A stretch of 51,382 bases of DNA from a virus (IMGVR_UViG_3300003690_000177:1-51382), one strand, 5' to 3'. Counted from the stretch's first letter, positions 17,869 to 51,353 are shown. Numbers and translations: made by a program. The notes: generated from the sequence alone by a model not told the origin.

Positions 17869-19288
17869 TAACGTTTTATATTACTTCACGCCTCCCTCCA
17901 CTATGAATGACAACAATGCGGAAACATTTATATTTTGGATAAAGATACCCGATACTAGTGGGTATCAGCGAATTTTTAACGAGAGTTCGGCCCGACGATT
18001 TGGAATCAATGATTCCACCTCTGATACCTGTCCGCGTAAGTTAAGGTTCCGCGCTTTTTGCTCTGGAGACGATGGAATCTGGAACACTGTTGATGATTTC
18101 CCCGAAAATGAATGGACGCACGTGGCCATTGCTTATGATCACAGTAGCCTTACTAACAAACCCGATATCTATATCAATGGAGCAAAACAAGCAATTGTAA
18201 CAGTTTCCCAACCAGATAATACGCCGGGTGATTTTGACTCGACGTGTTATTTCGGGTACACCTCCTCGGGGGCGCTGAGTGGTTATATATCCGATATGGC
18301 TTTTTATAATACCACCCTTACTGCAGATGAGATTCTAGGCATATATAGTTATTCTACTCTAGATTTGGAGAACTATGGCCCAACTAGAACAAGCGCCAAT
18401 CTTTTATTATGGTGGAGAATGGGCGACGGCCCGGGTGATTCTGCTGCCAGTATTATCGATCAAATGGGCAGCGCCAATTTAACAGCAGGAGGCTCCCCCG
18501 CTGGTACCCCGGCACTAATAGATCTTGCTTTTGGTAATTGTTTTCGATCTCCGGGCAACTTTGCCCTTCCCGACCGTACCGGCGCGAACTCTAACCAAAC
18601 CGTTATCGTCAATCACTTTAGTTCTCCGGGAGACTATAAGACTTTATCGCGCGGGTACTTGGATCCCGCTCACGAAGAGCTTTCAGTATACAACGCTGCT
18701 CCCTATCGCAATAGAGAAGTTATTGATTTCGGATTCCAGGGAAGCGCATCGCTAGACCCCTCAATTCAGGGCTCGATTCGCGTGGTCGATCAAATTGGCA
18801 AGAATCGCGGCCTCAATCAGCTTGCTACATTACACTGCGGGCCGTTTGGTTCAGACGCCGCATATGGTTCTGTCCCAGCTCTTTCCTATGTTACAACGCC
18901 CTCGTATCAGAAGGTTAATAGGAATGCCAAAACACGCATAGAGGGCGCCCGTGGAAATGCTGGTGAATTTAACGGTACCAATACTATTATAGATATAGGT
19001 TTGCCTGGTACCTGGGATGCACTCATCGGCGGACCCACCGCGAATGCTATACCATTTACATTTGGCGCGTGGGTTTATCCTCGATCACTTGGCGACAGCA
19101 ACGACGGCCGGATCTTTGAATTTGGTGCAGGCAGCGATCGACGCTTAAGTATCCAGAGTGGCTATAAAGCTTATTTTAGAATATCCGGCGGTAGCGCCAA
19201 TGCATACTCTAGTGCCGGTTCTTTGCCCCTTCACAAATGGACTCACGTTTTGGTGACCTATAGCGGCGGTCCCGGCGGCAACAACTAG
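17783..19288 (+). CDS. Giant LamG-domain tail protein, part 2 of 3 (frameshifted)
   Basis: This is the continuation of the protein begun at 12331, in the frame one base later. It starts at PGGALAPAESF and reaches NN-stop at 19288. It holds a LamG-like domain at 17910-18360 (ETFIFWIKI, EWTHVAIAYDH, YINGAKQ, GYISDMAFYN) and the first half of another from 19055 (FTFGAWVYP, LHKWTHVLVTYS). The repeated W-T-H-V strand and Y-I-x-D-x-A-x-Y/W turn are the family hallmarks. The frame is lost again at 19271-19279 in a CCCGGCGG run in the middle of a domain. The interruption inside a conserved fold is the reason I treat it as an error rather than two genes. Confidence 0.7.
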   Translation, partial: PGGALAPAESFRARNITAATFSAVGSPGDNVLYYFTPPSTMNDNNAETFIFWIKIPDTSGYQRIFNESSARRFGINDSTSDTCPRKLRFRAFCSGDDGIWNTVDDFPENEWTHVAIAYDHSSLTNKPDIYINGAKQAIVTVSQPDNTPGDFDSTCYFGYTSSGALSGYISDMAFYNTTLTADEILGIYSYSTLDLENYGPTRTSANLLLWWRMGDGPGDSAASIIDQMGSANLTAGGSPAGTPALIDLAFGNCFRSPGNFALPDRTGANSNQTVIVNHFSSPGDYKTLSRGYLDPAHEELSVYNAAPYRNREVIDFGFQGSASLDPSIQGSIRVVDQIGKNRGLNQLATLHCGPFGSDAAYGSVPALSYVTTPSYQKVNRNAKTRIEGARGNAGEFNGTNTIIDIGLPGTWDALIGGPTANAIPFTFGAWVYPRSLGDSNDGRIFEFGAGSDRRLSIQSGYKAYFRISGGSANAYSSAGSLPLHKWTHVLVTYSGGPGGNN

Positions 19289-34510: not shown

Positions 34511-35044
34511 ATGATTTTAGGTCTAGACATATCAACCAGCATTACGGGCTATACAATATTAGATTATGAGGGCAACATTCTTGCCTGTGATCATATTGAT
34601 TTGCGAAAAGAAAAGAATTTCTTCAAAAAAATACAAATCGTAAACCTTCATCTTGAATCGATAAACGAGGAGTATGATATAGATCAGGTATATATTGAAC
34701 AATCGCTTCAGTCGTTCCGCTCCGGTTTTTCGTCGGCTCAGACTTTATCCCTTTTATCAAAAATAAATGGCATTGTATCGTGGTTATGTTATAATATGTT
34801 TTACGGCGACCCCAAGTACCTCGCCGCCACATCCGCCCGCAAACTATGCGGCATCAAGATCCCCAAGGGCCAGAAAGCAAAAGCTGTTTCTTTGCAGTTT
34901 GTTGTTGACAATGTGCCCGGGTTTGAGGTAGAATATACAAGACATGGAAATCCCAAGGCCGGCTATGCCGATCGGTCGGATAGTTATGTTATAGCAAAGG
35001 CTGGCTGGCTAAATGAAAGACAAGAAACTCAAAATACTGACTAA
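34511..35044 (+). CDS. RuvC-like Holliday junction resolvase
   Basis: The 177-aa protein is a probable structure-specific endonuclease of the RNase H/RuvC fold that cuts recombination junctions, perhaps to clear branches before packaging. The catalytic acids fit: D6 in ILGLDISTS, E63 in YIEQSL, and D154/D157 in ADRSDSYVIA. The helix SAQTLSLLSKINGIV with G-x-x-x-x-L follows the family pattern, and a basic KIPKGQKAKA patch could bind DNA. The length matches RuvC (173 aa). It overlaps the primase gene by 32 bases. No Shine-Dalgarno sequence is visible before ATG 34511. The bases 34498-34510 are AT-rich. Confidence 0.85.
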   Translation: MILGLDISTSITGYTILDYEGNILACDHIDLRKEKNFFKKIQIVNLHLESINEEYDIDQVYIEQSLQSFRSGFSSAQTLSLLSKINGIVSWLCYNMFYGDPKYLAATSARKLCGIKIPKGQKAKAVSLQFVVDNVPGFEVEYTRHGNPKAGYADRSDSYVIAKAGWLNERQETQNTD

Positions 35045-35687
35045 TGTGTTGGGTCCCCCCTACAGGACCAATAACGAGTTTCTTTTCAAATGCCCATATT
35101 GCGATCACCATAAGCGCAAGTTCTCCGTAAATCTCGACAAAGGCTACTATAAGTGCTGGGTTTGTGATACGCGTGGAAAGAATTTGTATCGCGTCGTCCG
35201 GCGCTTTGGGTCAAATCATGACAAAGCACAGTGGCGAGAATTTACCTCCGAGATTGACTATGACAAACTTGAAGATTTATTTGCCGAGAAAATAGAAGAA
35301 AAACAAATACTTGAGATGCCTCCGACATTCGTGTCTCTAACAAGTAAAGACGTCCCCCCTACCGGCTTCGCTGCAAGGAACTATCTGCGTAAGCGTGGCA
35401 TCAGCAAACAAGACATTGTTTGGTGGAAGATGGGCTATTGTTGCGGAGGAGAATATGAGGGGAGAATCATTGTTCCATCGTTTGATGAGGAAGGTGATTT
35501 AAACTATTTCATTTCTAGATCGTATGATCGCGCCTTTTACCCGAAGTATAAAAACCCTCCAGTTAGTAAGAATATTATTTTTAACGACTTGTTCGTAGAT
35601 TGGAGTTCCGATATAGTTTTGGTCGAAGGCCTTTTGATGCGATCGTTGCCGGCCGTAATGCGGTCCCTATCCTTGGTTCTACTCTAA
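35013..35687 (+). CDS. DNA primase, DnaG-type, part 1 of 2 (frameshifted)
   Basis: This holds the zinc-binding domain and most of the primase core. Four Cys form CPYC (27, 30) and CWVC (48, 51), the zinc ribbon that recognises template. Meaningful coding runs to 35630 with DIVLVEG, which is the start of the Toprim fold. The expected VEGPFDAI motif is recovered when one base is added at 35631-35633 (the CC/TTTT junction). The joined protein would be 311 aa, about half of bacterial DnaG, so it lacks the C-terminal helicase-binding domain, as do many phage primases. It makes RNA primers for lagging-strand synthesis. It overlaps the RuvC-like gene. Confidence 0.85.
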   Translation: MKDKKLKILTNVLGPPYRTNNEFLFKCPYCDHHKRKFSVNLDKGYYKCWVCDTRGKNLYRVVRRFGSNHDKAQWREFTSEIDYDKLEDLFAEKIEEKQILEMPPTFVSLTSKDVPPTGFAARNYLRKRGISKQDIVWWKMGYCCGGEYEGRIIVPSFDEEGDLNYFISRSYDRAFYPKYKNPPVSKNIIFNDLFVDWSSDIVLVEGLLMRSLPAVMRSLSLVLL

Positions 35688-35947
35688 ATCAGAACTCGGT
35701 TTTGCTTCGCAAGATCGTTAAAGAAGACGCTGGAGTTTATGTCGCGCTGGATCCTGACGCAAAGAAGAAAGAGCTTGAGATTATCAAGACTTTATTGGAT
35801 TTTGATATTGAAGTTTGGAAGGTAGATATCGGGGATAATGAGGATGTTGGCTCTATGGATAAAGAGCATTTCCAGAAATGCCTGGAAAATGCGACTCTTA
35901 TCACTCCGGATAACTATTTATTGTTGACGCTTGCAATGTCTGTGTAG
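35633..35947 (+). CDS. DNA primase, DnaG-type, part 2 of 2 (Toprim end, frameshifted)
   Basis: In frame from 35633 the sequence reads FDAIVAGRNAVPILGSTLN, continuing the Toprim domain from part 1. VYVALDPDAKKKE supplies the D-x-D metal-binding pair. The remainder is a short helical end (NEDVGSMDKEHFQKC) that stops at 35947. No separate start is needed. The junction defect at 35631-35633 is a missing base; with it restored the two parts form a complete zinc-ribbon plus Toprim primase. The next gene begins nine bases later behind AGGAA. Confidence 0.8.
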   Translation, partial: FDAIVAGRNAVPILGSTLNQNSVLLRKIVKEDAGVYVALDPDAKKKELEIIKTLLDFDIEVWKVDIGDNEDVGSMDKEHFQKCLENATLITPDNYLLLTLAMSV

Positions 35948-35956
35948 GAACATACT

Positions 35957-36286
35957 ATGAAATTGATAATGGAAAACTGGAAGAAGTTTCTGACCGAAGG
36001 CGAGCTGGGGGCCGAATTGGTGAAGCTCCGCCTCAGTCGTGTTGACCACGAAAGGCTCGCTAGTGTGGGAGGATCGGTTCCCGAGTTGGGCCCCGAGGTG
36101 CCTCCCATGAGTTGGAATATTAATAATAATGTTTTGGCTGTGGTGGACGATGAGGCGGGCCACTGGTTTTTGCGGCCCCATCCAGAAGATCAGTTTGATA
36201 AAATTGATATCGCGCTTCCAGAACTAGAGGGAATGGGCTTTAAACAGTCGGACCAAGTCCCGGTTCCTGTATGGAGAAATCAGTGA
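35957..36286 (+). CDS. Leader-tagged small protein, MENW-type leader
   Basis: The 109-aa protein starts MKLIMENWKKFLTE, then G. This 14-residue amphipathic leader recurs at 50172 (MKLLMENWRRYLKE). The end of the leader, L12-T-E14, fits the [L/I]-x-E cleavage pattern of T4 prohead protease gp21, and the segment resembles T4 internal-protein leaders (MKTYQEFIAE). The mature remainder would be about 95 residues, with strands NNNVLAVVDD, HWFLRPHPED and FDKIDIALPEL. The function is unknown. AGGAA (35946-35950) is six bases before ATG. It heads the run of leader-tagged genes and its stop overlaps the next start (GTGA). A packaged internal protein is an inference. Confidence 0.6.
   Translation: MKLIMENWKKFLTEGELGAELVKLRLSRVDHERLASVGGSVPELGPEVPPMSWNINNNVLAVVDDEAGHWFLRPHPEDQFDKIDIALPELEGMGFKQSDQVPVPVWRNQ
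36273..36276 (+). promoter_or_regulatory. Ribosome binding site that selects a GTG start at 36283
   Basis: GGAG at 36273-36276 sits six bases before the GTG at 36283 and overlaps the upstream ATG 36271, which it cannot serve. The leader homology also begins exactly at this GTG, so the two lines of evidence agree. Confidence 0.6.
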
Positions 36287-36678
36287 AAATCTCAGCTGCC
36301 CGTTTGAAGCAAATTATTAAGGAGGAACTCTTTTATCGAGAGTTTCATCGTGAGACGAAAGAGCTTGTAGAAGTAGAAACAGAGAAGCAACAACGCTATA
36401 TGTGCGCGATGAAAGCCGACGATGCTGATAGACCTAAGGGGTTGTCGCAAGATAAGGCTGAAGAAATGTGTACGGCTCCCGTGAAGGAAACTTTGGGGAG
36501 TACCATTCGCCGCAGCGCCACAGCTCACCAAAATCTGGAAACTATAGAGCTGGCGAAGAAGACACAGCAAAGCCTGATAGATCAGTTAAAGGCGTCCGAA
36601 GATCCCGGTGAACAAGAAAAAATCGAAAGACGATTAAAACTCTTGCTACAGCTAATCAGCGACTTAAAATTAGGATAA
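36283..36678 (+). CDS. Leader-tagged small protein 1, IIKEEL-type leader (131 aa)
   Basis: This starts at GTG with MKISAARLKQIIKEELF; the leader is the most divergent of the six IIKEEL leaders. I12-K-E14 fits the prohead-protease pattern. The body has two Cys (MCAMKADD, then EMCTAP) flanking a Lys/Asp-rich turn, and a helical C-terminal half (QQSLIDQLKAS, ERRLKLLLQLISDL) likely to form a coiled coil. The function is unknown. It overlaps the preceding gene by four bases (GTGA). The alternative ATG at 36271 would add four residues before the conserved leader and lacks a ribosome site. Confidence 0.6.
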   Translation: MKISAARLKQIIKEELFYREFHRETKELVEVETEKQQRYMCAMKADDADRPKGLSQDKAEEMCTAPVKETLGSTIRRSATAHQNLETIELAKKTQQSLIDQLKASEDPGEQEKIERRLKLLLQLISDLKLG

Positions 36679-36685
36679 GAAAACT

Positions 36686-36733
36686 ATGAAAATCACCAAA
36701 CAAAGACTCAAAGAGATTATCAAGGAAGAGCTT
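36686..36733 (+). repeat. Leader repeat, copy 1 (48 bases)
   Basis: The 48 bases starting ATGAAAATCACCAAACAAAG code for the leader MKITKQRLKEIIKEEL. They are identical to copy 3 (37988-38035) and differ from copy 2 (37096-37143) at two positions. The sequence diverges immediately after. Confidence 0.85.
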
Positions 36734-37096
36734 TCGGAGGCCTCCGAAGCAAGTATCCGCGCAGACCTAGCTCGCCCAGCCGGCACCCCGCGGCCATCTT
36801 TAAACCCAGAATGGGACAAGGCAGGCAAAATTCTGAGCGACTTAGTGTATCTTGCAGACGACCTTGAGAACAGTTCTAACGCCGATCCGGCACAGCTAGC
36901 ACTCGCAATCGTTAGCAAACTCCGCGAAGCCGTCGATGCCATGGAGAGCCGCCTGAACGAAAAGTTTGCTGCTGCAGCAGAAGACGAGGTGTCCGACGAA
37001 GAAGCCCTGGTACTTAAAGGACCCCGGTTCGATCCACTTGGTGATTCCCCAGCGGCACTACGACAGCGCGCCTCGGTGCGCCGGGGAGGTAACTAA
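36686..37096 (+). CDS. Leader-tagged small protein 2, IIKEEL-type leader (136 aa)
   Basis: The leader is MKITKQRLKEIIKEELSE, with I12-K-E14 and L16-S-E18 as possible cleavage points. The body has an Ala/Pro-rich segment, then helices (KILSDLVYLADDLEN, LAIVSKLREAVDAM), then an acidic patch and the C-terminal motif GPRFDPLGDSP followed by a basic end. That motif recurs as PKHDPLDISS in small protein 4, indicating shared ancestry of the bodies. The leader DNA is nearly identical to that of proteins 3 and 6. The stop overlaps the next start (TAATG). The function is unknown; a cassette of packaged proteins is inferred. Confidence 0.6.
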   Translation: MKITKQRLKEIIKEELSEASEASIRADLARPAGTPRPSLNPEWDKAGKILSDLVYLADDLENSSNADPAQLALAIVSKLREAVDAMESRLNEKFAAAAEDEVSDEEALVLKGPRFDPLGDSPAALRQRASVRRGGN

Positions 37097-37143
37097 TGAA
37101 AATCACCAAACAAAGACTCAAAGAGATAATCAAGGAAGAACTT
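37096..37143 (+). repeat. Leader repeat, copy 2 (48 bases)
   Basis: This copy differs from copies 1 and 3 only at two synonymous sites (ATT/ATA for Ile and GAG/GAA for Glu). The differences are silent, which points to constraint on the leader peptide. Confidence 0.85.
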
Positions 37144-37386
37144 GAGACCGTGAGTGTGGGCGCTCCTATTGAAGACTTCCCAGAATCAGAAGAAGTCGAC
37201 GAACCCGATCTTGGACTCGGCACCCCCGAAGAGACGTTGTTGACTCTAATGCGTGCTCGGAAGATACTTGATCAGTATGGATCCTTTGAGGAACTGGCAG
37301 CTGCTTTCCCCGAGATCGAGCGCGACCGGGATACTGCGCGCTGGGTTGCCGCCATTAAGGCGAACCCAATGTATGGGAGTAGCTAA
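37096..37386 (+). CDS. Leader-tagged small protein 3, IIKEEL-type leader (96 aa)
   Basis: The leader MKITKQRLKEIIKEELET is coded by DNA with only two mismatches to that of protein 2 over 48 bases. The body is acidic (DFPESEEVDEPDLG) followed by helices LLTLMRARKILDQY and FEELAAAFPEIE. The mature part would be about 80 residues. A strong ribosome site (GGGGAGG, 37083-37089) is six bases before the ATG, which overlaps the stop of protein 2. Function unknown. No detectable similarity to the bodies of its neighbours, though the leader is the same. Confidence 0.6.
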   Translation: MKITKQRLKEIIKEELETVSVGAPIEDFPESEEVDEPDLGLGTPEETLLTLMRARKILDQYGSFEELAAAFPEIERDRDTARWVAAIKANPMYGSS

Positions 37387-37387
37387 A

Positions 37388-37699
37388 ATGAAGATTTCAA
37401 AGTCACAACTTAGACAAATTATCAAGGAAGAGCTTGGAACTCTTGCCGAGAATGAACAGCCAGAAATCGAGCAGCTGCTAGCAGCCGCCATTGAGGCAAT
37501 CTCGGAGCACCAGACTTCAATGCCCGAACCGGCGAATCAGCTTACTTATGCACTAGAACAGCTTAACGGTGTGATGGGATTGCTTCGCTCCGGAGAAGAG
37601 CCTTTGCGCCTTAGCAAACCAAAGCACGATCCACTGGATATATCTTCCGCCGGGCAGCGTACTCGACGACGATTACAAGGGAGGGGGAGAATCCCTTAG
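37388..37699 (+). CDS. Leader-tagged small protein 4, IIKEEL-type leader (103 aa)
   Basis: The start is ATG 37388, giving MKISKSQLRQIIKEELGT, not an upstream start. GGGAG (37376-37380) supports it. The body is helical (IEQLLAAAIEAISEHQ, LTYALEQLNGVMGLL) and ends with the PKHDPLDISS motif plus a basic tail (TRRRLQGRGR) also seen in protein 2. I12-K-E14 fits the cleavage pattern. Proteins 2 and 4 appear to be diverged copies of the same gene. Function unknown; the basic end could bind DNA in the capsid. Confidence 0.6.
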   Translation: MKISKSQLRQIIKEELGTLAENEQPEIEQLLAAAIEAISEHQTSMPEPANQLTYALEQLNGVMGLLRSGEEPLRLSKPKHDPLDISSAGQRTRRRLQGRGRIP

Positions 37700-37703
37700 A
37701 CAA

Positions 37704-37991
37704 ATGAAAATCACCAAATCACAACTTAAACAGGTCATCAAGGAGGAGCTTTTAGAAGCGCTTACCGCGGGGCCCGAAGGGAGGCAGCTGGAACAAGGAA
37801 TCCCGACAGCTTCATTTTCCTTAGTGAAAAACAAGCTCGAAGAGCTTCTTTTAGCGAAACTGGCCGAAAACACATCTACACATGGTAGCGAGGCTGAGTG
37901 GTATGCATCGATAGAAGATCGCCTAGGAGATTTACAAGAGCTATGGAACTGGCTAGCCGGCGAATCGCTCCGAGAAGGGATAAAAAAATGA
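37704..37991 (+). CDS. Leader-tagged small protein 5, IIKEEL-type leader (95 aa)
   Basis: The leader is MKITKSQLKQVIKEELLEA, a sixteenth-position variant with V11. I12-K-E14 and L16-L-E18 both fit [L/I]-x-E. The body is helical with SLVKNKLEELLLAKLAE, then a Trp-containing segment (EWYASIEDRL, LWNWLAG). The stop TGA overlaps the next start (ATGA). Function unknown. The leader DNA differs from that of proteins 2, 3 and 6 at about a dozen positions, so it belongs to a second sequence class along with protein 4. Confidence 0.6.
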   Translation: MKITKSQLKQVIKEELLEALTAGPEGRQLEQGIPTASFSLVKNKLEELLLAKLAENTSTHGSEAEWYASIEDRLGDLQELWNWLAGESLREGIKK

Positions 37992-38035
37992 AAATCACCA
38001 AACAAAGACTCAAAGAGATTATCAAGGAAGAGCTT
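37988..38035 (+). repeat. Leader repeat, copy 3 (48 bases)
   Basis: These 48 bases are identical to copy 1 although 1.3 kb apart. Direct repeats this long could support homologous exchange, or deletion of the genes between them. Confidence 0.85.
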
Positions 38036-38260
38036 GGGCCTCTGCGTGAGGGTGAGTGGGATACCCTTGATCAGGCGTTTGCCGGTTATCTTGCTGAATA
38101 TAAAAAGGCCGCCGCCATGGCGCAAGGCGAGGAAGGGCTGAACGCTTTGTGGGACCATACAACAGACCAAATTAGGGAGCTAACAGATGAAGAATCTTTT
38201 CGCGCTCACGGCAGAATGTCCGCTGGATCCACGGCATCCCGAAAGCTTAGGCAGTTATAA
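37988..38260 (+). CDS. Leader-tagged small protein 6, IIKEEL-type leader (90 aa)
   Basis: The start is ATG 37988, giving MKITKQRLKEIIKEELGP. The first 48 bases match those of protein 2 exactly. The body follows with LREGEWDTLDQAFAGYL, a helical stretch and a basic, Ser-rich end (STASRKLRQL). It is the last of the tagged genes. A separate promoter begins 15 bases after its stop. Because the leader DNA is the same as in protein 2 but the body is not, a recombination event between leaders is a simple explanation. Function unknown. Confidence 0.6.
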   Translation: MKITKQRLKEIIKEELGPLREGEWDTLDQAFAGYLAEYKKAAAMAQGEEGLNALWDHTTDQIRELTDEESFRAHGRMSAGSTASRKLRQL

Positions 38261-38328: not shown

Positions 38329-41300
38329 TTGTACAAGATAGCACATATAGCAGATACACACATAAAGAATTTAAAGTTTCACTACGAGTATAAGATTGTT
38401 TTCGAGCAACTATATGAAACACTACGAAAAGAAAAAGTAGATTACATCGTTCACTGCGGCGACATCGCCCACACAAAGACTCAGATTTCACCAGAGTTCG
38501 TTGAGCTTTGCTCCGACTTCTTTTCCAGTCTGGCGAGCATCGCGCCCACCTACATCATCTTGGGCAACCACGACGGCAACTTAAAGAATAGCACGCGCCA
38601 GGACGCCCTCACACCCATTGTGAAGGCTTTGAATCTACCGGACCTACATCTGCTCAAGAACGCAGGAGAAGTCCTTGTGGGCCCGCACATTGCCTTCAAC
38701 GTGCTCTCGGTTTTTGATGAGGATAACTGGGTGATGCCGAGTGATCCCGAGAGGATCAACATTGCTTTGTATCACGGCTCTGTGTCTGGTGTGAAGACCG
38801 ACACTGGCTGGGTGATGACTCACGGGGATCACGACGTGAGTATTTTTGGTGGTCATGACTTCGCGATGCTCGGAGATATTCATAAGACCAATCAAGTCCT
38901 TGATGACGAAGGCCGCGTGAGGTATCCCGGCTCAACCGTTCAACAGAATCACGGCGAGACAAACGACAAGGGATTTTTGATTTGGGAAATTGAAGACAAA
39001 GACACGTTTCGCGTGAGTCATCATGTTTTGCTCAACCCAAAACCATTTGTAACAATCGATCTTACTCCCAAGGGAAGGATCCCAAAAGGAACTAAGGTGC
39101 CCCCAGGTGCGCGACTGCGTCTCGTCAGCAACAATAACCTACCGCTTGATGTGATGCGCAAGGCTGTTGATGTTGCGAAGCAGCGCTTTGAGCCAGAAAG
39201 TATCACATTTTTGAATCGCGCCGCCGGCGAACGTGGTACTGTGAATATTGGCGCCGGGTTCAAGGTAGAAAATCTTCGAGATCACGGAGTCCAAGAAAAT
39301 TTAATTCGTGAGTATTTAACAGACTATGAACCAAGCGAAGGAATGCTACAGCGGGTATTTGATTTAAATCGAAAGTATAACTCACAGATTGAAGAAACCG
39401 AAGAAGTCGCACGAAATGTTAATTGGAATATTAATCGGTTTGAATGGGATAATCTTTTCAATTATGGTGAAGATAACAGTGTTGACTTCGCAAACTTGAA
39501 TGGGATTGTTGGGATTTTCGGCAAGAACTACTCAGGAAAATCTAGTATTGTTGATGGTCTTCTTTACACGATGTTTAATACAACATCTAAGAATGAGCGT
39601 AAAAATTATAATATTATTAACCAGAACAAAAAGGACTGTCGAGGAGTTGTTGAACTTCAAATTGGAGATAAAACATATACGATCGAGCGCTCTTCTGAGA
39701 AATATGTAAAGAAACTTAAGGGCGAAGTTACAAACGAAGCCCGTACGTCTCTGGACTTCAGTGGCTATGATCCCACTATTGATGAAGTCGTGAGCCTGAA
39801 TGGCACGACACGCACAGAAACAGATGCGCATATTAGGAAGCGATTTGGGACAGTCGAAGACTTTTTATTGACCTCTATGTCGAGTCAGCTTGACAATTTA
39901 TCCTTTATTAAGGAGGGTTCCACTCGTCGTAAGGAAATCCTTGCTAAGTTCTTGGATTTAGATATTTTTGAAAGAAAGTTTAAGCTGTCTCAGGAGGACA
40001 GTGCGGACCTTAAAGGTGTCTTACGGCGCTTCGGAGAAGTTAACTACGATAATGATATAGCTCTTGCACAGGTTCGGTGGCAAGAAGCGCAAAAAGAACT
40101 AGATGAAGAAGTCGTGATTCATGCCCAGGCACGTCAGGATATGGCTGAAGCGCATCATAAATATGCCGAGCTAACCGAACAGATAGAATCAATTCCAGCG
40201 GAAAGGTTGGATATTAGGGCATTATTGGAATCTAAAACATCGCTGCAAGAAAAGATAGAAGAAACCAATATTAATATTGTCGAACTTAAGAACGAGAATG
40301 GGGAACACGAGAAGAAACTAAAAGAATATGATGATTTTCTTACGACTATTGATATTGAGGATCTTTTAGAAAAGAAAAAAGAGTATGATGATTTTAAGCA
40401 GAAGTATGATGATACAGTAAATCATGCTCGTCTTTTGGATAATGAATATAAAGCCATGAGTAAGAAAGTCGACCTGTTGGATGAAGTTCCGTGTGGCAAT
40501 AGATTTCCAATGTGTCAATTTATTAAGGATGCACATTTAGCATCTGTGGAACTGCCTTCACTTGAGGTAGAAATCATAGATCAGATAAAAGATGCTAAGA
40601 ACTACAAGTCAAAAGTGGTGTCCGTAAACTCAGCAGAAATGATTGAAGTAATCGACAGCTATAACAACACCATTATTAGTAAAAATAATATTGAGATTGA
40701 AAAGAGAGACAACAAAGTATGGATTGAAAAATTGTATGCGAAGATAAAGTCTTATCGTAATGATCTTATAGAAGTAGATACAAAGATCGATCTCTATGAG
40801 GAAAAGAAAGATCTTATTAAAAATATTGAGAATCTTCTTTCTTCTAGAAACCAGGTTCAAAAAACTATTGAACTTACCAAGGAATCGATTATTTCTTTAG
40901 AAGATTTGATAAATGATCATCATCATCAGATCGGCTCGCTGGAACAAAAGGTTGAAACTCTTGAGGAAAAGAAAGAGGATCTTCGTAACATCCGTGAAGA
41001 ATATGCGGCCTATGATTTATTCATGCGCTGCACTCACTCTAATGGAATTGCTTATGATATCATTAAGAAGAGGCTACCTGTCATTAATAGCGAAATCGCC
41101 AAGGTACTTTCTAATATTGCTGATTTTGAAATCTTCTTTCAAGAAGATGGAAGAAAGTTGGATATTCTTATTAAGCACCCGAAGCACGATCCGCGTCCTA
41201 TTGAGATGGGCTCCGGCGCCGAGAAGACTGTAGCTGCTATGGCTATTCGTCTAGCCCTCCTTTCGGTTTCGTCGTTGCCCAAAGGCAATATTTTTATCCT

Positions 41301-41481
41301 TGACGAACCAGGCACCGCTCTGGATGCCGAGAACATGGAGGGGTTCATTCGAATTCTTCAACTTATAAAAATGTATTTTAAGACGGTCATCCTCATTTCG
41401 CATTTGGATTCTTTGAAAGATATAGTTGATATTGAGATTTGCATAGATAAGAGCAGAGGATATGCTCAAGTCAATCATTAG
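38329..41481 (+). CDS. Mre11-Rad50 (SbcD-SbcC) fusion, gp47/gp46-like nuclease
   Basis: The single 1050-aa chain joins the two parts of the recombination nuclease that T4 makes as gp47 and gp46. Residues 1-340 are the Mre11/SbcD metallophosphoesterase: HIADTHI (D9, H11), HCGDIAH (D45), LGNHDG (N80-D82), GGHDFAMLGDIHK. Residues 385-1050 are Rad50/SbcC: Walker A GKNYSGKSS (398-406), coiled-coil arms, a hook, signature GSGAEKT (about 961-967), Walker B ILDEPGTALD (D992, E993) and the H-loop LISHLD. The hook has two Cys, C722 and C729 (CGNRFPMC), spaced C-x6-C instead of the usual C-x-x-C. The enzyme resects DNA ends to feed recombination-dependent replication. It has its own promoter and ends by overlapping the convergent J-domain gene by 11 bases. 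Confidence 0.9.
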   Translation: MYKIAHIADTHIKNLKFHYEYKIVFEQLYETLRKEKVDYIVHCGDIAHTKTQISPEFVELCSDFFSSLASIAPTYIILGNHDGNLKNSTRQDALTPIVKALNLPDLHLLKNAGEVLVGPHIAFNVLSVFDEDNWVMPSDPERINIALYHGSVSGVKTDTGWVMTHGDHDVSIFGGHDFAMLGDIHKTNQVLDDEGRVRYPGSTVQQNHGETNDKGFLIWEIEDKDTFRVSHHVLLNPKPFVTIDLTPKGRIPKGTKVPPGARLRLVSNNNLPLDVMRKAVDVAKQRFEPESITFLNRAAGERGTVNIGAGFKVENLRDHGVQENLIREYLTDYEPSEGMLQRVFDLNRKYNSQIEETEEVARNVNWNINRFEWDNLFNYGEDNSVDFANLNGIVGIFGKNYSGKSSIVDGLLYTMFNTTSKNERKNYNIINQNKKDCRGVVELQIGDKTYTIERSSEKYVKKLKGEVTNEARTSLDFSGYDPTIDEVVSLNGTTRTETDAHIRKRFGTVEDFLLTSMSSQLDNLSFIKEGSTRRKEILAKFLDLDIFERKFKLSQEDSADLKGVLRRFGEVNYDNDIALAQVRWQEAQKELDEEVVIHAQARQDMAEAHHKYAELTEQIESIPAERLDIRALLESKTSLQEKIEETNINIVELKNENGEHEKKLKEYDDFLTTIDIEDLLEKKKEYDDFKQKYDDTVNHARLLDNEYKAMSKKVDLLDEVPCGNRFPMCQFIKDAHLASVELPSLEVEIIDQIKDAKNYKSKVVSVNSAEMIEVIDSYNNTIISKNNIEIEKRDNKVWIEKLYAKIKSYRNDLIEVDTKIDLYEEKKDLIKNIENLLSSRNQVQKTIELTKESIISLEDLINDHHHQIGSLEQKVETLEEKKEDLRNIREEYAAYDLFMRCTHSNGIAYDIIKKRLPVINSEIAKVLSNIADFEIFFQEDGRKLDILIKHPKHDPRPIEMGSGAEKTVAAMAIRLALLSVSSLPKGNIFILDEPGTALDAENMEGFIRILQLIKMYFKTVILISHLDSLKDIVDIEICIDKSRGYAQVNH

Positions 41482-44783: not shown

Positions 44784-45332
44784 ATGGCAACTGTATACGA
44801 AATCATTCAGGGAATAAATCAGGCGGCAGCAAATGCATATGATGGCGCTCATGAAGAGAGTCTGCAAGCCGATGGTAAGGCTCGAAAGGTCGGCCTAGCC
44901 CGCGAAGACGGACATTATATTAATGACAGACGCGTCATGGACGGGTTTCAGGTGCAGTTTCATGGGCCTATTTTAAGAGTAAAATATCAGGCAGAAATTC
45001 GGATTAAAGACGTTAAAAACAGTGGCTTCGAAAATGAAATTGGTAGTCGGCTTGCTGACATTGTTAAGTTTCTTAAAAAAGAATATAAATCTATAACCGG
45101 AAATGCCGTCACTCTTACTAAAGAGGGCGATCACCACATCCTTGTTCAAAGGATTTCTAATTATCGGACTGACTGCCAGGCTCACTGCGACTATCGTATT
45201 GGCGGCCTCAAGGATATGCCGGAGGTTGAAGCGGGAAGTAACGAGGAGCGCCTCGACGCAGCGGTTAAAAAGTGGCTGGCACTGGGGCCCAAAAACAAGC
45301 GACCTTCAAACGACACCCGGAAAGGCAAATAA
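44784..45332 (+). CDS. Hypothetical protein upstream of TerL (182 aa)
   Basis: The product starts MATVYEIIQGINQAAANAYDG and has a strand-helix core: VQFHGPILRVKYQAEI, then SRLADIVKFLKKEYK, and a strand ILVQRISNY. It contains CQAHC (two Cys spaced C-x3-C). The C-terminus is basic (KNKRPSNDTRKGK). The gene lies between the zinc-ribbon gene and TerL, one base after the upstream stop. I do not recognise the family. A head or packaging role is only inferred from position. Confidence 0.55.
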   Translation: MATVYEIIQGINQAAANAYDGAHEESLQADGKARKVGLAREDGHYINDRRVMDGFQVQFHGPILRVKYQAEIRIKDVKNSGFENEIGSRLADIVKFLKKEYKSITGNAVTLTKEGDHHILVQRISNYRTDCQAHCDYRIGGLKDMPEVEAGSNEERLDAAVKKWLALGPKNKRPSNDTRKGK

Positions 45333-45340
45333 AAAATGTC

Positions 45341-46927
45341 ATGGGGAATGCCCTTACTAAAGAAGAAATATTAAGAGAGATTGTTAAAGCCGGCAAAGAC
45401 CCGGTTTATTTTACAATAAGCTATTGCCGCATTTCACACCCACAGCGCGGCCTTATCCCCTTTAACGCATACGATTATCAAAAAGAACTATTAAAAGATT
45501 TTAGCGATTATCGTTTTAATATTATTCTTAAAGCTCGCCAGCTTGGTATTTCTACCATTACAGCTGCCTATGTCGCGTGGTTGATGCTCTTCCATCGGGA
45601 TAAAAATATTTTAGTTGTCGCGACCAAGCTTCAGACAGCTACCAATCTTGTAAGAAAAGTCAAAGCAATTATCAAACATCTCCCGGATTGGATGAGGATA
45701 TCAGAAATTATTGTTGATAATAGAACTTCGTTTGAACTTTCAAATGGATCCCAGATCAAAGGATCTTCAACATCCTCAGATGCTGGTCGATCAGAAGCTC
45801 TTTCGCTGCTCGTGGTTGACGAGGCCGCACACGTTGAAAAGTTAGGAGAGTTGTGGACAGCGCTTTACCCTACCTTATCAACCGGTGGCCGATGTATTGC
45901 TCTTTCTACTCCTAACGGTGTAGGGAATTGGTTTCACCAAAATTGTGTTGAAGCCGAAGCGGGCACAAACGCGTTTCACATGACAACCCTTCTGTGGGAC
46001 GCTCACCCGGATAGAGACAAGACCTGGTTTGATAAAGAGACCAAGAACATGTCCAAGCGCCAGATCGCACAGGAGCTAGAGTGCAACTTCAATGTTTCAG
46101 GAGAAACAGTTATTCATCCAGACGACATTCAATGGTACTTGGAGAGAACTGTGGCACCCGAATATAGAACAGGGTTTGATCGAAACTACTGGATTTGGAA
46201 AAAATGTATTACCGGAAAGCCATACTTAATCGTTGCGGATGTGGCTCGCGGCGACGGCAAAGACAATAGTGCGTTTCATATTTTTGAACTTGAAACAATG
46301 GAGGTGGTAGCTGAATATGTTGGCAAGGCCACCCCCGATGACTTTGCAGATATTTTGTATAATGTTGCTGCCGAGTATGGGAATCCTATGTTAGTGATAG
46401 AAAACAACAACATAGGTTATGCAGTACTTAAAAAGTTAATAGATAAAGGGTATCCTAATATATATCATTCTAGCAAAGGAGACCACCACTATGTAGATCC
46501 TGTGGCAGCCCAGTGGCAGTCGAATGTTATTCCAGGGTTTACAACTTCTTCAAAAACAAGACCTTTGATAGTAGCTAAGATGGAAGAGTTTATGAGAAAC
46601 AAACTAATTAAGATTAACTCGAATCGTTTGCTTTCTGAAATGAAAACGTTTATTTGGCATAGCGGAAGGCCACAGGCGATGCGTAGCTATAATGATGATT
46701 TGGTAATGTCGTTTGCTATCGGGTGTTGGGTAAGGGATACCGTGATCGTGGAAAGTCAAAAAAGTATCGAGTACAGCAAACAGTTTTTATCTTCCATCAG
46801 CACATCAAAAACAGATATTTCAACAACGATTCCTGGGATGCAGGGGCACAAGGTAACAAAAGAGAACCAGAGAAGCTACGAAGCGGAGACATTTAACGAG
46901 CAATATCTTGCTCTGATAAAAGGATAA
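45341..46927 (+). CDS. Terminase large subunit (gp17-like packaging motor)
   Basis: The 528-aa motor pumps DNA into the prohead and cuts concatemers. ATG 45341 is the best start by content. ATPase domain: Walker A-like KARQLGIST (64-72), Walker B LLVVDEAAH (D160, E161), and ALSTPNG coupling motif. Nuclease domain (RNase H fold): D300 in VADVARGD, E354 in LVIENNN and D452/D453 in YNDDLVMS. The order and spacing match T4 gp17 (610 aa), with a shorter N-terminal region. It is followed by the portal gene after three bases. Ribosome site is weak (AAAGG, far). An alternative short frame at 45336 is discussed under rejected items. Confidence 0.92.
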   Translation: MGNALTKEEILREIVKAGKDPVYFTISYCRISHPQRGLIPFNAYDYQKELLKDFSDYRFNIILKARQLGISTITAAYVAWLMLFHRDKNILVVATKLQTATNLVRKVKAIIKHLPDWMRISEIIVDNRTSFELSNGSQIKGSSTSSDAGRSEALSLLVVDEAAHVEKLGELWTALYPTLSTGGRCIALSTPNGVGNWFHQNCVEAEAGTNAFHMTTLLWDAHPDRDKTWFDKETKNMSKRQIAQELECNFNVSGETVIHPDDIQWYLERTVAPEYRTGFDRNYWIWKKCITGKPYLIVADVARGDGKDNSAFHIFELETMEVVAEYVGKATPDDFADILYNVAAEYGNPMLVIENNNIGYAVLKKLIDKGYPNIYHSSKGDHHYVDPVAAQWQSNVIPGFTTSSKTRPLIVAKMEEFMRNKLIKINSNRLLSEMKTFIWHSGRPQAMRSYNDDLVMSFAIGCWVRDTVIVESQKSIEYSKQFLSSISTSKTDISTTIPGMQGHKVTKENQRSYEAETFNEQYLALIKG

Positions 46928-46930
46928 AAA

Positions 46931-48862
46931 ATGGCCAAGACCGAGAAAAACACACGAAACCCAGCATCACCGTTATTCAAAAGATTAACTCGGATGTTGT
47001 CCGGACCGATCGTAAACTATCGGTCCCAAGTTGCTCGACAGGAACGGCGAGGTAATTTAGATAAATATCGATATAGGATTAAATCTTTAAGCGGCCAGGA
47101 GTTCAAGCGCTCTGACAACAACATGTCGCAGAATTATAATCTGTATACTTCGGCAGCCTTCCGCAACCAGAACCGCGCCGAGCGCTATACTGATTTTGAA
47201 CAGATGGAGTATATGCCGGAGCTTGCGTCTGCATTAGATATATATGCCGATGAAATGACAACTTCAAATGAGTATGATCGCCTTTTGAATATCGATTGTA
47301 AGAATCATGAGATTAAGACTATTATTGAGGCTCTTTTTTATGACGTTCTTAATATTGAATTTAATGCATTTGGCTGGACACGGTCTATGTGTAAGTACGG
47401 GGATTTCTTTCTTTATTTAGACATTGATGAAAATCTTGGGATTACCTCGGTGATTGGAATGCCCAACAATGAAGTCGAGAGACTAGAGGGCCAGGATGCC
47501 ACCAATCCCAACTACGTCCAATATCAGTGGAATGGAGCAGGCATGACTTTCGAGAACTGGCAAGTTGCACACTTCCGTATTTTGGGCAACGATCGTTATT
47601 CGCCTTATGGAACATCTATTTTCGATCCCGCTCGCCGCATTTGGCGTCAGCTTGTTCTTTTAGAGGACGCGATGATTGCCTATCGAGTAGTCCGCGCTCC
47701 GGAGCGTCGCATCTTTAAAATTGATGTTGGCAATATTCCTCCGCAAGATATCCCTCAGTATATGGAAAAAGTAAAGACCGAGATGAAGCGCAATCAACTA
47801 ATTGATGCATCAACCGGGCGCGTAGATCTTCGGTATAACCCTCTATCTTTGGAAGAGGATTATTTTATTCCTATTCGTGGTGGGGTGGGGTCTGATATTA
47901 CCTCTCTTCAGGGTGCATCTAGTCTCAATGATATTGATGATGTTAAATACTTACGCGATAAGCTTTTTGCCGCCATCAAAATCCCACAGGCGTATCTTAC
48001 TAATTTAGAAGGCGGTGACGAAGATAAAACCACTTTAGCTCAAAAGGACATTCGTTTTGCTCGGACCATTCATCGTCTTCAAAGATCGGTGGTTTCCGAA
48101 CTAGAAAAGATGGCGATAGTTCATCTCTATACTCTAGGATATCGAGGAGAGGATCTCCTCTCGTTTAAAATAACTCTTAATAATCCATCCAGATTAGCAG
48201 AGCTACAGCAACTTGAATATATGAGAACAAAGTTTGAAACCGCAACAGCAGTCCCAGAAGGAACTTTTAGCAAGCGCTGGGTTGCATCTAATATCCTCGG
48301 TCTTTCAGATTCGGAATTCTTGCGCAACCAGCGCGAGACATATTATGATCGCAAGTATCAGCAGGAGCTTGAGGGCCTTGCAGAAGAGGCTGCAGCCGAT
48401 GAAGCCGGCGGAGGCCTAGGCGATCTCGGCGGTGGAGACCTCGGGGGTGATCTTGGGGGTGAAGACCTCGGGGGTGAAGACCTCGGGGGTGAAGACCTCG
48501 GGGGTGAAGACGAATCGGCTCTTTTGACAACCCCCGGCCGTCGTGAAGATGGTCACCTAAGCGAAGAAGGAGAAAGAGTATATGATCATGGGACATACAC
48601 TCCTGTTACTGTAGATAATCGAGATCTCGGAGGAATGCGACGCAACATCGCCAATACGGCGATGCCTGAAATCCCGTCAGGCCGCGGCCGCGCAAAGACA
48701 CCCCCTGGTAAGATTCTAGATGTAACGTTTGGCACGAAACAATATAAGGAATCTATTTATAATAAAGATGAAACCACTTTATTTGAAAACACAACAAAAG
48801 TAAGGCGCTTGGTTGAACAAATGGAAAGGAAATCACGGGAGGTAGACGAAGATGAAGCATAA
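46931..48862 (+). CDS. Portal protein (gp20-like)
   Basis: The 643-aa protein forms the dodecameric ring at the capsid vertex through which DNA enters. Gp20-type features: YMPELASALDIYADEMT (about 98-114), KYGDFFLYLDIDEN, AHFRILGND, a central helix, and the channel region ending AFRTIHRLQR-like ARTIHRLQRSVV. The Gly-rich tract GDLGGEDLGGEDL (residues about 500-527) is an in-frame repeat. A Lys/Arg-rich end follows. T4 gp20 is 524 aa, so it is extended, mainly by the Gly/Asp tract and the C-terminal region. Start ATG 46931, immediately after TerL. Confidence 0.9.
   Translation: MAKTEKNTRNPASPLFKRLTRMLSGPIVNYRSQVARQERRGNLDKYRYRIKSLSGQEFKRSDNNMSQNYNLYTSAAFRNQNRAERYTDFEQMEYMPELASALDIYADEMTTSNEYDRLLNIDCKNHEIKTIIEALFYDVLNIEFNAFGWTRSMCKYGDFFLYLDIDENLGITSVIGMPNNEVERLEGQDATNPNYVQYQWNGAGMTFENWQVAHFRILGNDRYSPYGTSIFDPARRIWRQLVLLEDAMIAYRVVRAPERRIFKIDVGNIPPQDIPQYMEKVKTEMKRNQLIDASTGRVDLRYNPLSLEEDYFIPIRGGVGSDITSLQGASSLNDIDDVKYLRDKLFAAIKIPQAYLTNLEGGDEDKTTLAQKDIRFARTIHRLQRSVVSELEKMAIVHLYTLGYRGEDLLSFKITLNNPSRLAELQQLEYMRTKFETATAVPEGTFSKRWVASNILGLSDSEFLRNQRETYYDRKYQQELEGLAEEAAADEAGGGLGDLGGGDLGGDLGGEDLGGEDLGGEDLGGEDESALLTTPGRREDGHLSEEGERVYDHGTYTPVTVDNRDLGGMRRNIANTAMPEIPSGRGRAKTPPGKILDVTFGTKQYKESIYNKDETTLFENTTKVRRLVEQMERKSREVDEDEA
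48437..48510 (+). repeat. 15-base tandem repeat in the portal gene
   Basis: Three perfect copies of a 15-base unit starting GAAGACCTCG occur at 48461-48505, and degenerate copies extend left from 48437. The unit codes EDLGG. Being in frame, it can expand or contract. It falls in a flexible tail of the portal. Confidence 0.9.
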
Positions 48863-49664: not shown

Positions 49665-50163
49665 AATCAAGATTGGTGGACCACAGGCGACTGTCGAGTT
49701 ATATGCCCGCAAAGCATTAGACGGCTCGCTTCTTATAATGGACCATCAAAAAATTGATATCGTGGTGATGCCGGGTAAAATGAAAATTAGCACCTTCCCC
49801 AAAAGCAATGCCACCGAAGATGTGTATGAATATCAGAACAGATTACTAGAACTTCTTGCCGATCGAGGAATCCTTGACCGTAGCAGCATCCAAGGGGGCA
49901 ATATCTTTCGTTCCTTAGAGGGCGAAGTTTTCGAGAACACCCAAGTCAATCCGCTTCAGGCAGCAGTTTTTGTTATATCAGAATACATTGAAATAGAGGC
50001 CCAGCATGAACACATTGCTGATCAGTACGAGAAAGAGCTTGAAGATATGTATACTCATCCCGACGACCGCGAGTCAACAGAATACGGAGAGGTGCCACAA
50101 TCTGCCGACAAGGGCTCCATGCGCCCGGGCTATTATTACTATCCATTAAGGAACCGATATTAA
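49657..50163 (+). CDS. Hypothetical head-region protein (168 aa)
   Basis: Start ATG 49657 gives MIKIKIGGPQATVELYARKA; AGAGG (49643-49647) is suitably placed and the ATG overlaps the upstream stop. The alternative start at 49636 is unlikely. Strands KIDIVVMPGKMKIST and helix EYQNRLLELLADRG are visible. Later, VFVISEYIEIEAQHEHIADQ is a helix, and the end is acidic, then Tyr-rich (GYYYYPLRNRY). It precedes the tagged membrane protein and overlaps its start. Function unknown; a head or internal protein is likely by position. Confidence 0.55.
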   Translation: MIKIKIGGPQATVELYARKALDGSLLIMDHQKIDIVVMPGKMKISTFPKSNATEDVYEYQNRLLELLADRGILDRSSIQGGNIFRSLEGEVFENTQVNPLQAAVFVISEYIEIEAQHEHIADQYEKELEDMYTHPDDRESTEYGEVPQSADKGSMRPGYYYYPLRNRY

Positions 50164-51353
50164 TGTCTGACATGAAACTATTGATGGAGAACTGGCGCCG
50201 GTACCTCAAAGAAAACGAGGAAGCTGCCGCGCTTATTGATGACAATGTGCTGTTAATTGAAAACCAACAAGTAGTTGGAGAAAAGAACTTTGATGTTTTG
50301 TGTGAGGAGGCTCGCCAAGGAGTGCTCACCGAAGAGCAGTTCTTTAACATTTTAAACGAAGCATCCGAGCATGAGTGGGGCCTTATTGAAGAAACTCTTT
50401 TCTTAGAAGAAGGGATGGACCTCGAAGCTGTTAAAAAGTGGGGCAAAGAAAAGTGGGCTAAGCTTAAAAGCGCTGCAATCACCAAAGGTTTTAAGTTTGT
50501 AATAAATGCAATAAATCGCATTATTAAGATTCTCGCGAGCATGCTTGATACTTTTGGGATGAAATTATATCTCGGCGCGATGAAGCTGATAGGCACTGCC
50601 GCAAAGGGCGCCCGCAAGATAGCACCTTATATTGGGCCCGGACTCTGGGTCTTGGGTGCCATCCTGATCTTTGTTGCTGCCTACAGCGGAACTCTTGAGG
50701 TTCTTACGGACCAAGCCGGCGAAGCCATTCAGGCACTAGCAAGTGGAGACATAGATGCCTCTCAAGCTCAAGCGGCAATGATTTGTGAGTTCCAGTGTAA
50801 TGGTGAAGTTATAGAAAAGAATATTTTAGCATCCGCAGTGGATCTTTTGACACGCGATTTATACGGAAACCTTGGTGGCGAAGCTGGAATTGAAGAAGAG
50901 TTGTTTGTAAGCTATCAAGAGGAGGTAACGCAGAACGATGAGCTAGTAAAGATGGTAGATTATCTTTTAATTGATGAAAAATTCAATGAAGCCAACGTTA
51001 CGGTTGATGCTATCCAAGGACTCTCGATGGATCTACATGATATGATAAGCAAAGGCGACGAGAAGCTTCACCTTAAGTTAGCCGACTTCCATCCCATGGT
51101 CGCTGAAAAGATTGAAGCTGCTATTGAGATGGCAACCGAGATGAGAGAACTAGATCCCGAAATGGCAGATGCTTCTGCAGAAGCCGGCGAAAAAGTTAAG
51201 ACCCTATGGAGCGGAAAAGTAGAAGGAACATTTAAAATGTTGGACACGCAACACACAAAGATAGTTGGCGGCGAAACGGTTGTTGATGACTTCACCAGTA
51301 GTGTTTCGGACTTCACCATGACTAAAGGGAAGGACGTCCCCGTCCGCGGCTAA
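50163..51353 (+). CDS. Leader-tagged membrane protein, MENW-type leader (396 aa)
   Basis: The product begins MSDMKLLMENWRRYLKENEE. From the internal Met at residue 4 it matches the 35957 leader, with L-K-E at leader residues 12-14. A second acidic stretch (FLEEGMDLEA, about 80-90) contains further [FL]-x-E sites. A basic amphipathic region (KGFKFVINAINRIIKILAS, about 115-135) leads to a hydrophobic helix APYIGPGLWVLGAILIFVAAY (about 159-178). The C-terminal 200 residues are helical and acidic. A capsid-packaged protein that enters the cell membrane with the DNA is a tempting inference. ATG 50163 is preferred because AAGGA lies ten bases upstream, and no ribosome site precedes 50172. The last 29 bases of the window hold AGAAGGA, a probable ribosome site for a gene beyond the edge. 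Confidence 0.6.
   Translation: MSDMKLLMENWRRYLKENEEAAALIDDNVLLIENQQVVGEKNFDVLCEEARQGVLTEEQFFNILNEASEHEWGLIEETLFLEEGMDLEAVKKWGKEKWAKLKSAAITKGFKFVINAINRIIKILASMLDTFGMKLYLGAMKLIGTAAKGARKIAPYIGPGLWVLGAILIFVAAYSGTLEVLTDQAGEAIQALASGDIDASQAQAAMICEFQCNGEVIEKNILASAVDLLTRDLYGNLGGEAGIEEELFVSYQEEVTQNDELVKMVDYLLIDEKFNEANVTVDAIQGLSMDLHDMISKGDEKLHLKLADFHPMVAEKIEAAIEMATEMRELDPEMADASAEAGEKVKTLWSGKVEGTFKMLDTQHTKIVGGETVVDDFTSSVSDFTMTKGKDVPVRG

Follow-up and report, generated by a model that had tools for sequence, protein, structure and literature searches.

What is the function of the near-alike N-termini carried by a row of small, otherwise mostly unrelated phage proteins? The question is raised by a 51,382-bp viral fragment from IMG/VR (the window, by which we mean this whole stretch of DNA), in which seven short, tightly packed plus-strand genes occupy positions 35957 to 38260, between genes for a DNA primase and an SbcD-SbcC fusion. 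Their leaders are 14 residues long and of two types, MENW and IIKEEL, and both types have the residue layout of the capsid-targeting sequence (CTS) of phage T4. An earlier sequence-only reading had proposed that they are capsid-targeting tags, and this interpretation is supported: both leaders are widespread, co-occur with a suitable protease, are swapped on bodies, and match the T4 layout. With good confidence, we regard them as T4-type CTSs that are interchangeable, removed by a protease, and borne by packaged, probably injected proteins.

All seven leaders named in that reading are present, and each has [IL]-x-E at residues 12 to 14. Gene 1 (35957 to 36286; 109 aa) is of the MENW type; its leader, MKLIMENWKKFLTE (35957 to 35998), has W8, F11, L12, and E14 and is followed by GELG. 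The other six genes follow the consensus MKI[TS]xxxL[KR]x[IV]IKEEL, and in each the leader is followed by EL. Gene 2 (36283 to 36678) carries the leader MKISAARLKQIIKE (36283 to 36324) and has a GTG start at 36283, with an in-frame ATG at 36271. The leader MKITKQRLKEIIKE is found in gene 3 (36686 to 37096; 136 aa; leader 36686 to 36727), gene 4 (37096 to 37386; 96 aa; leader 37096 to 37137), and gene 7 (37988 to 38260; 90 aa; leader 37988 to 38029), while gene 5 (37388 to 37699; 103 aa) has MKISKSQLRQIIKE (37388 to 37429) and gene 6 (37704 to 37991; 95 aa) has MKITKSQLKQVIKE (37704 to 37745). The seven proteins are 90 to 136 aa in total length, and their bodies are, as had been claimed, mostly unrelated, the sole significant pair being a 26-residue C-terminal stretch common to the products of the genes at 36686 and 37388. 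The tally of seven stands but was incomplete, since an eighth leader of the MENW type had been overlooked. It belongs to a plus-strand gene at 50163 to 51353 (396 aa), which begins MSD-MKLLMENWRRYLKE (leader 50172 to 50213) and continues with NEE.

The two leader families are both real, yet they align in a single register, with W8, F11, L12, and E14 of the MENW type corresponding to L8, I11, I12, and E14 of the IIKEEL type, so that they resemble two versions of a single signal. Strict MENW leaders have W8 in 158/158 cases, F or Y at position 11, L, I, V, or M at position 12, and E14 in 157/158; IIKEEL leaders have L8, I11, and I12, with E14 in 272/273. The search patterns themselves dictated some of these positions, though neither the register of W nor the choice of E over D at position 14, D having been allowed. 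The codons used at the conserved residues differ across phages, which indicates that conservation acts at the protein level.

The T4 tag to which both families can be compared is the MKTYQEFIAE of internal protein III (IPIII), in which mutagenesis assigned residues 4 and 7 mainly to targeting and residues 8 and 10 to processing (PMC9026906). The spacing of its Y4, F7, I8, and E10 is the same as that of the hydrophobic residues 8 and 11, [IL]12, and E14 of the leaders, and the layout shared by the T4 tag and both leader families can be written phi-x-x-phi-[IL]-x-E, where phi is hydrophobic. Both families thus have the targeting and processing residues at the spacing expected of a CTS. As a positive control, a DNA pattern for this layout was run on T4 and hit the two MKTYQEFIAE genes and nothing else; the same pattern picks up MENW genes in several leader phages.

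The occurrence of the leaders is not due to chance. Each leader pattern was found in at least 120 stretches in viral contigs, and the matches listed include 433 distinct complete leader open reading frames (ORFs), of which 275 are of the IIKEEL type and 158 of the MENW type. Once the leader is removed, these fall into about 320 body clusters, so that a propeptide of 14 residues, within the 10 to 19 residues of a CTS, precedes many unrelated proteins. Strict matches to either leader were absent from 120 random viral loci (1.04 Mb) picked by an arbitrary 14-mer, which contained one loose MENW-type match. Bacterial and archaeal genomes totaling 257 Gb contained three matches to the IIKEEL DNA pattern, all in metagenome-assembled genomes; two of the three also carry a gp21-type protease, and the matches may therefore represent co-binned phage contigs. 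Among the phage records searched by pattern, the only positive was the uncultured 484-kb LR756508, with two IIKEEL leaders; none was found in T4, phiKZ, SPO1, RM378, immuto, Mel-JY01, S-MbCM7, or Melnitz. A short tblastn search with the leaders found no match in cultured phages, the queries being too short to be informative. Among the mainly open-access papers searched, none contained the string KITKSQLKQIIKEEL, and no description of these leader families was found. The metagenomic search that the sequence-only reading had suggested thus finds both families to be widespread and also to occur together in the same phages.

Removal of the leader would require a protease, and the candidate is Peptidase_S77 (PF03420), the Pfam family of T4 gp21. 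Among contigs of at least 100 kb, it is present in 28 of 35 with leaders (18/22 and 10/13), compared with 2 of 8 in a small random set (Fisher p 0.006). The capsid protein gp23 was found in 29 tested leader records, and all of these except G061 also have the protease; in G061, about 5 kb separates gp23 from the contig end, and no protease was found. The other protease-negative long leader contigs either lack gp23, along with portal or terminase where tested, or end within the head module. Every leader contig whose T4-type head module is intact also has the protease, and the five long leader contigs that lack the head module altogether count neither way. The leaders therefore accompany a gp21-like protease and a T4-type capsid protein in relatives, and the case of leaders in a phage devoid of such a protease was not encountered. 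In leader phages, the N-termini of the capsid proteins carry the near-invariant motifs L[TA]EG, LLEN, and L-[LV]-[RK]-E. The last of these, which can be read as [LV]-x-E or L-[RK]-E, lies near the equivalent of the T4 maturation cut and is a candidate cut site as judged from sequence. In Microcystis phage Mel-JY01 (L190), the gene that separates the capsid gene from that of the protease in the head module, at 18551 to 18778, is annotated as ribosomal protein S21.

The leaders also behave as modules. The MENW protein L046:1985 and the IIKEEL protein L068:2754 have bodies that are 75% identical past the leader, with the switch at E14, and L100:5359 and L373:2581 have 62% identical bodies behind different leaders, which bears out the claim that the two are interchangeable. 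Leader-like cores are found inside leader ORFs or at their C-termini 15 times, compared with 1.04 expected; in T4, the C-terminal propeptide of Alt is cut at LTE (PMC5694885). A second [LIM]xE is present at residues 20 to 22 in 30% of IIKEEL proteins, compared with 2% expected. The body of window gene 2 holds a recurrent module, S/T-EKQ-R/Q...CA...LSxxEAEEMC (also written EKQ(R/Q)xxxCA...LSxxEAEEMC), that elsewhere sits behind N-terminal leaders, internal leader cores, or unrelated domains. All 15 distinct copies are immediately preceded by [LMV]-x-E with a variable x, a count that is not a probability because the copies are homologous. In gene 2, this second putative cleavage motif is L-V-E (36364 to 36372, plus strand), followed by VETEKQQRYMCAM, and L28, E30, and V31 are invariant among seven homologues. 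An L and an E that stay fixed around a variable residue are the trace expected of a protease site. In several multi-domain proteins (L032:2708-3133, L029, L006, L474, and L480), an internal leader-like helix precedes the SEKQRRWACAQ module, and these are possible polyproteins that are cut into separate cargo.

The seven window bodies have no Pfam or PHROG family match above noise and hence, in these scans, no homology to known internal proteins. Leader proteins elsewhere have Nudix, protein kinase-like, GNAT, DUF192, YkuD, DnaJ, guanylate kinase, zeta toxin-like, LigT/2H-like, HD_4, GDSL, and M23 domains. ADP-ribosyltransferase (ART), Nudix, and 2H proteins have been independently predicted to be packaged in myovirus heads (PMC9503650). 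Several leader proteins here read like ARTs, and one of them, L047:797, has a weak Pfam match (ART-PolyVal, E 2.8e-4, below the cut-off); for the two modeled with AlphaFold, L022 and the 50163 protein, the resemblance is a motif reading. The model of the ART-like L022 was too poor (predicted local distance difference test [pLDDT], 52), and a fold search with it gave no significant match; the model of the 50163 protein had a pLDDT of 39. Behind MENW leaders, we also observed two kinase-like proteins, L010:10001-10975 (GRGHYGVVYE loop; Pkinase match of 1.8e-6 over a short N-lobe stretch) and L169:6125-6853 (GRGMFRTVYQ loop; no Pfam match), as well as an HD_4 protein, L388:910-1584, with a HQGQTRRGGEPYITHP motif reminiscent of (p)ppGpp hydrolases.

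Docking, cleavage, packaging, and injection, like the functions of the individual bodies, are what we infer from these features. As the prohead assembles, the amphipathic helix at the N-terminus would dock the protein on the scaffold core via its hydrophobic face (residues 8 and 11), and the gp21-like (S77) prohead protease would then cut after E14 of [IL]-x-E, with some proteins being cut further at downstream [LIM]-x-E sites. The mature body would remain alongside the DNA inside the head and would probably be delivered into the host at infection. The steps differ in strength: targeting of the proteins to the head is very probable, cleavage of the leader is probable, and delivery of the cargo into the host is somewhat less firmly indicated, if still favored. 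Several observations weigh against this scheme. The window stops short of its own protease and capsid genes, and the random protease control comprises only eight contigs that are not habitat matched. The 15 module copies are not independent. The bodies are mostly acidic (median isoelectric point, about 5.0 and 4.9; 19% and 11% above 8), and a T4-like late promoter motif, TATAAATA, is not enriched on the coding strand. Furthermore, conservation in IIKEEL leaders extends past the proposed cut, with E at residue 15 (P1') in nearly all cases and a hydrophobic residue at position 16.

This last feature would suit a leader that docks the protein into the prohead and is never cut, with [IL]-x-E being kept for helix capping or binding. 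Targeting and cutting are indeed separable, because D10 in the T4 IPIII tag blocks cutting and not targeting (PMC9026906). Yet it is E and not D that is kept at position 14 of the leaders, the second LxE at residues 20 to 22 is strongly enriched, and the gene 2 module is always joined via an [LMV]xE whose middle residue varies. The phages also have the gp21-like protease and capsid proteins with conserved LxE sites, and we therefore consider an uncut tag to be unlikely.

Two further alternatives give the leader a different role. It could send proteins to the tail, the membrane, or a phage-made compartment, or it could be an antitoxin-like segment that shields the cargo, for which the toxin-like and enzyme domains might offer a reason. 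The residue layout is nevertheless that of the T4 head CTS, the presence of leaders tracks the T4-type head module, and the leader has no hydrophobic signal peptide, all of which makes such a role quite improbable. Alternatively, the repeated 5' segment could act as DNA or RNA, as a recombination handle or an enhancer of translation starts, with the peptide being incidental. Three of the window leaders are identical at 46 to 48 of 48 nt (those at 36686 and 37988 at all 48), which would help recombination, whereas across phages the codons vary while the residues are kept, the same four positions are shared by two leaders that otherwise differ in sequence, and copies are also found in frame within ORFs and at their C-termini. 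In view of this codon variation and these in-frame internal copies, we rejected a DNA-level or translation-start role and give it almost no weight.

Among known systems, the interpretation of the leaders as capsid-targeting tags brings them closest to T4 IPI to IPIII and their CTS (PMC9026906, PMC3012670, PMC12373910). The two share a short N-terminal propeptide with equal spacing of two hydrophobic residues, [IL], and E, unrelated bodies behind one tag, variable loci, and a gp21-type protease with gp23 in the same phages. In contrast to the T4 proteins, the leaders here are 4 residues longer and of two sequence types, there are 7 to 15 leader genes per near-complete genome, and the bodies, often enzymes, include none found similar in sequence to T4 internal protein bodies. 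Because those bodies are basic and the bodies here mostly acidic, the leader proteins are not the T4 internal protein family itself. T4 Alt, a packaged ART cut at both ends by gp21 (PMC5694885), is similar in being a packaged enzyme with [IL]xE propeptides, and some leader proteins look ART-like or carry a C-terminal leader copy; unlike for Alt, the ART assignment here is weak (one Pfam match below the cut-off and a poor structure model). The DarB protein of phage P1 has an N-terminal packaging signal (PMC9024508) and is a host-directed protein whose N-terminal segment is sufficient for capsid entry, a role proposed here for the leaders, but the Dar proteins share no consensus and P1 is apparently without a separate scaffold (PMC9024508). 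Polyvalent proteins (PMC5512222) are also predicted to be packaged multi-enzyme proteins that act on the host; they are defined by fused domains and not by a shared leader, whereas the proteins here are mostly single-domain, with a few leader-joined chains.

The seven-gene cluster of the window lies in a variable hot spot. Upstream is the primase gene (35013 to 35947, plus strand; phrog_47), and downstream is the gene for the 1,050-aa SbcD-SbcC fusion (38329 to 41481, plus strand; phrog_77 and phrog_100; synteny). In the window, the primase is split into frames 35013 to 35687 and 35600 to 35947 (overlap, 35600 to 35687) by a frameshift or an assembly error, while it is a single intact 318-aa ORF in the relative G001. 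The flanking proteins of G001 are about 80% identical, and four leader genes lie in its interval, with a clearly conserved body seen only in the counterpart of gene 2. The interval contains three leader genes in G005, one in G006, none in G058, and about eleven in G007 if its contig ends join, and G010 has five just upstream of SbcCD. Near-complete genomes have 7 to 15 leader genes, including further, mainly MENW, clusters elsewhere. The interval resembles the internal protein loci of T-even phages, where at least ten internal proteins with a shared signal sequence are reported (PMC12373910), and it is probably a variable cassette site that acquires, loses, and swaps cargo bodies while the leaders stay conserved. 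The eighth leader gene sits downstream of the genes for the T4-type terminase large subunit, at the start of the head module (45272 to 46927, plus strand; phrog_2), and the T4-type portal protein gp20 (46931 to 48862, plus strand; phrog_213; PF07230, E 3.5e-80). Its homologue in L004 (9986 to 11188), 81% identical and with the same leader, adjoins a RecA/UvsX-like gene instead of a portal gene, which suggests that the gene may have moved as a unit.

The T4 CTSs were already known. What is new here is that a large T4-like group, mostly uncultured, has two families of such leaders, that these are exchanged on homologous bodies, that internal and C-terminal leader copies join domains, and that the cargo spans a range of enzymes. 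We lean slightly toward a lineage-wide reading, in which a large uncultured T4-like lineage would rely on a single modular tag, with two versions that are interchangeable, both at N-termini and at internal or end positions of polyproteins, to load 7 to 15 proteins per particle. Such cargo would include protein kinase-like, Nudix, zeta-toxin-like, HD, and 2H phosphoesterase-like proteins, acetyltransferases, and DnaJ, and the tag would therefore let the injected effector set be read directly from sequence. The arrangement suggests that head cargo evolves by the replacement of bodies at defined hot spots while the tag in front of them stays fixed, and that several cargo domains, linked through protease sites, can share one ORF. 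Only in a few model phages is it known which proteins enter the cell with the DNA. A simple motif would, if the leaders are capsid-targeting tags, list hundreds of candidate injected proteins of uncultured T4-like phages, and these candidates, most of them without known function, would be directly testable as early host-takeover or counter-defense factors.

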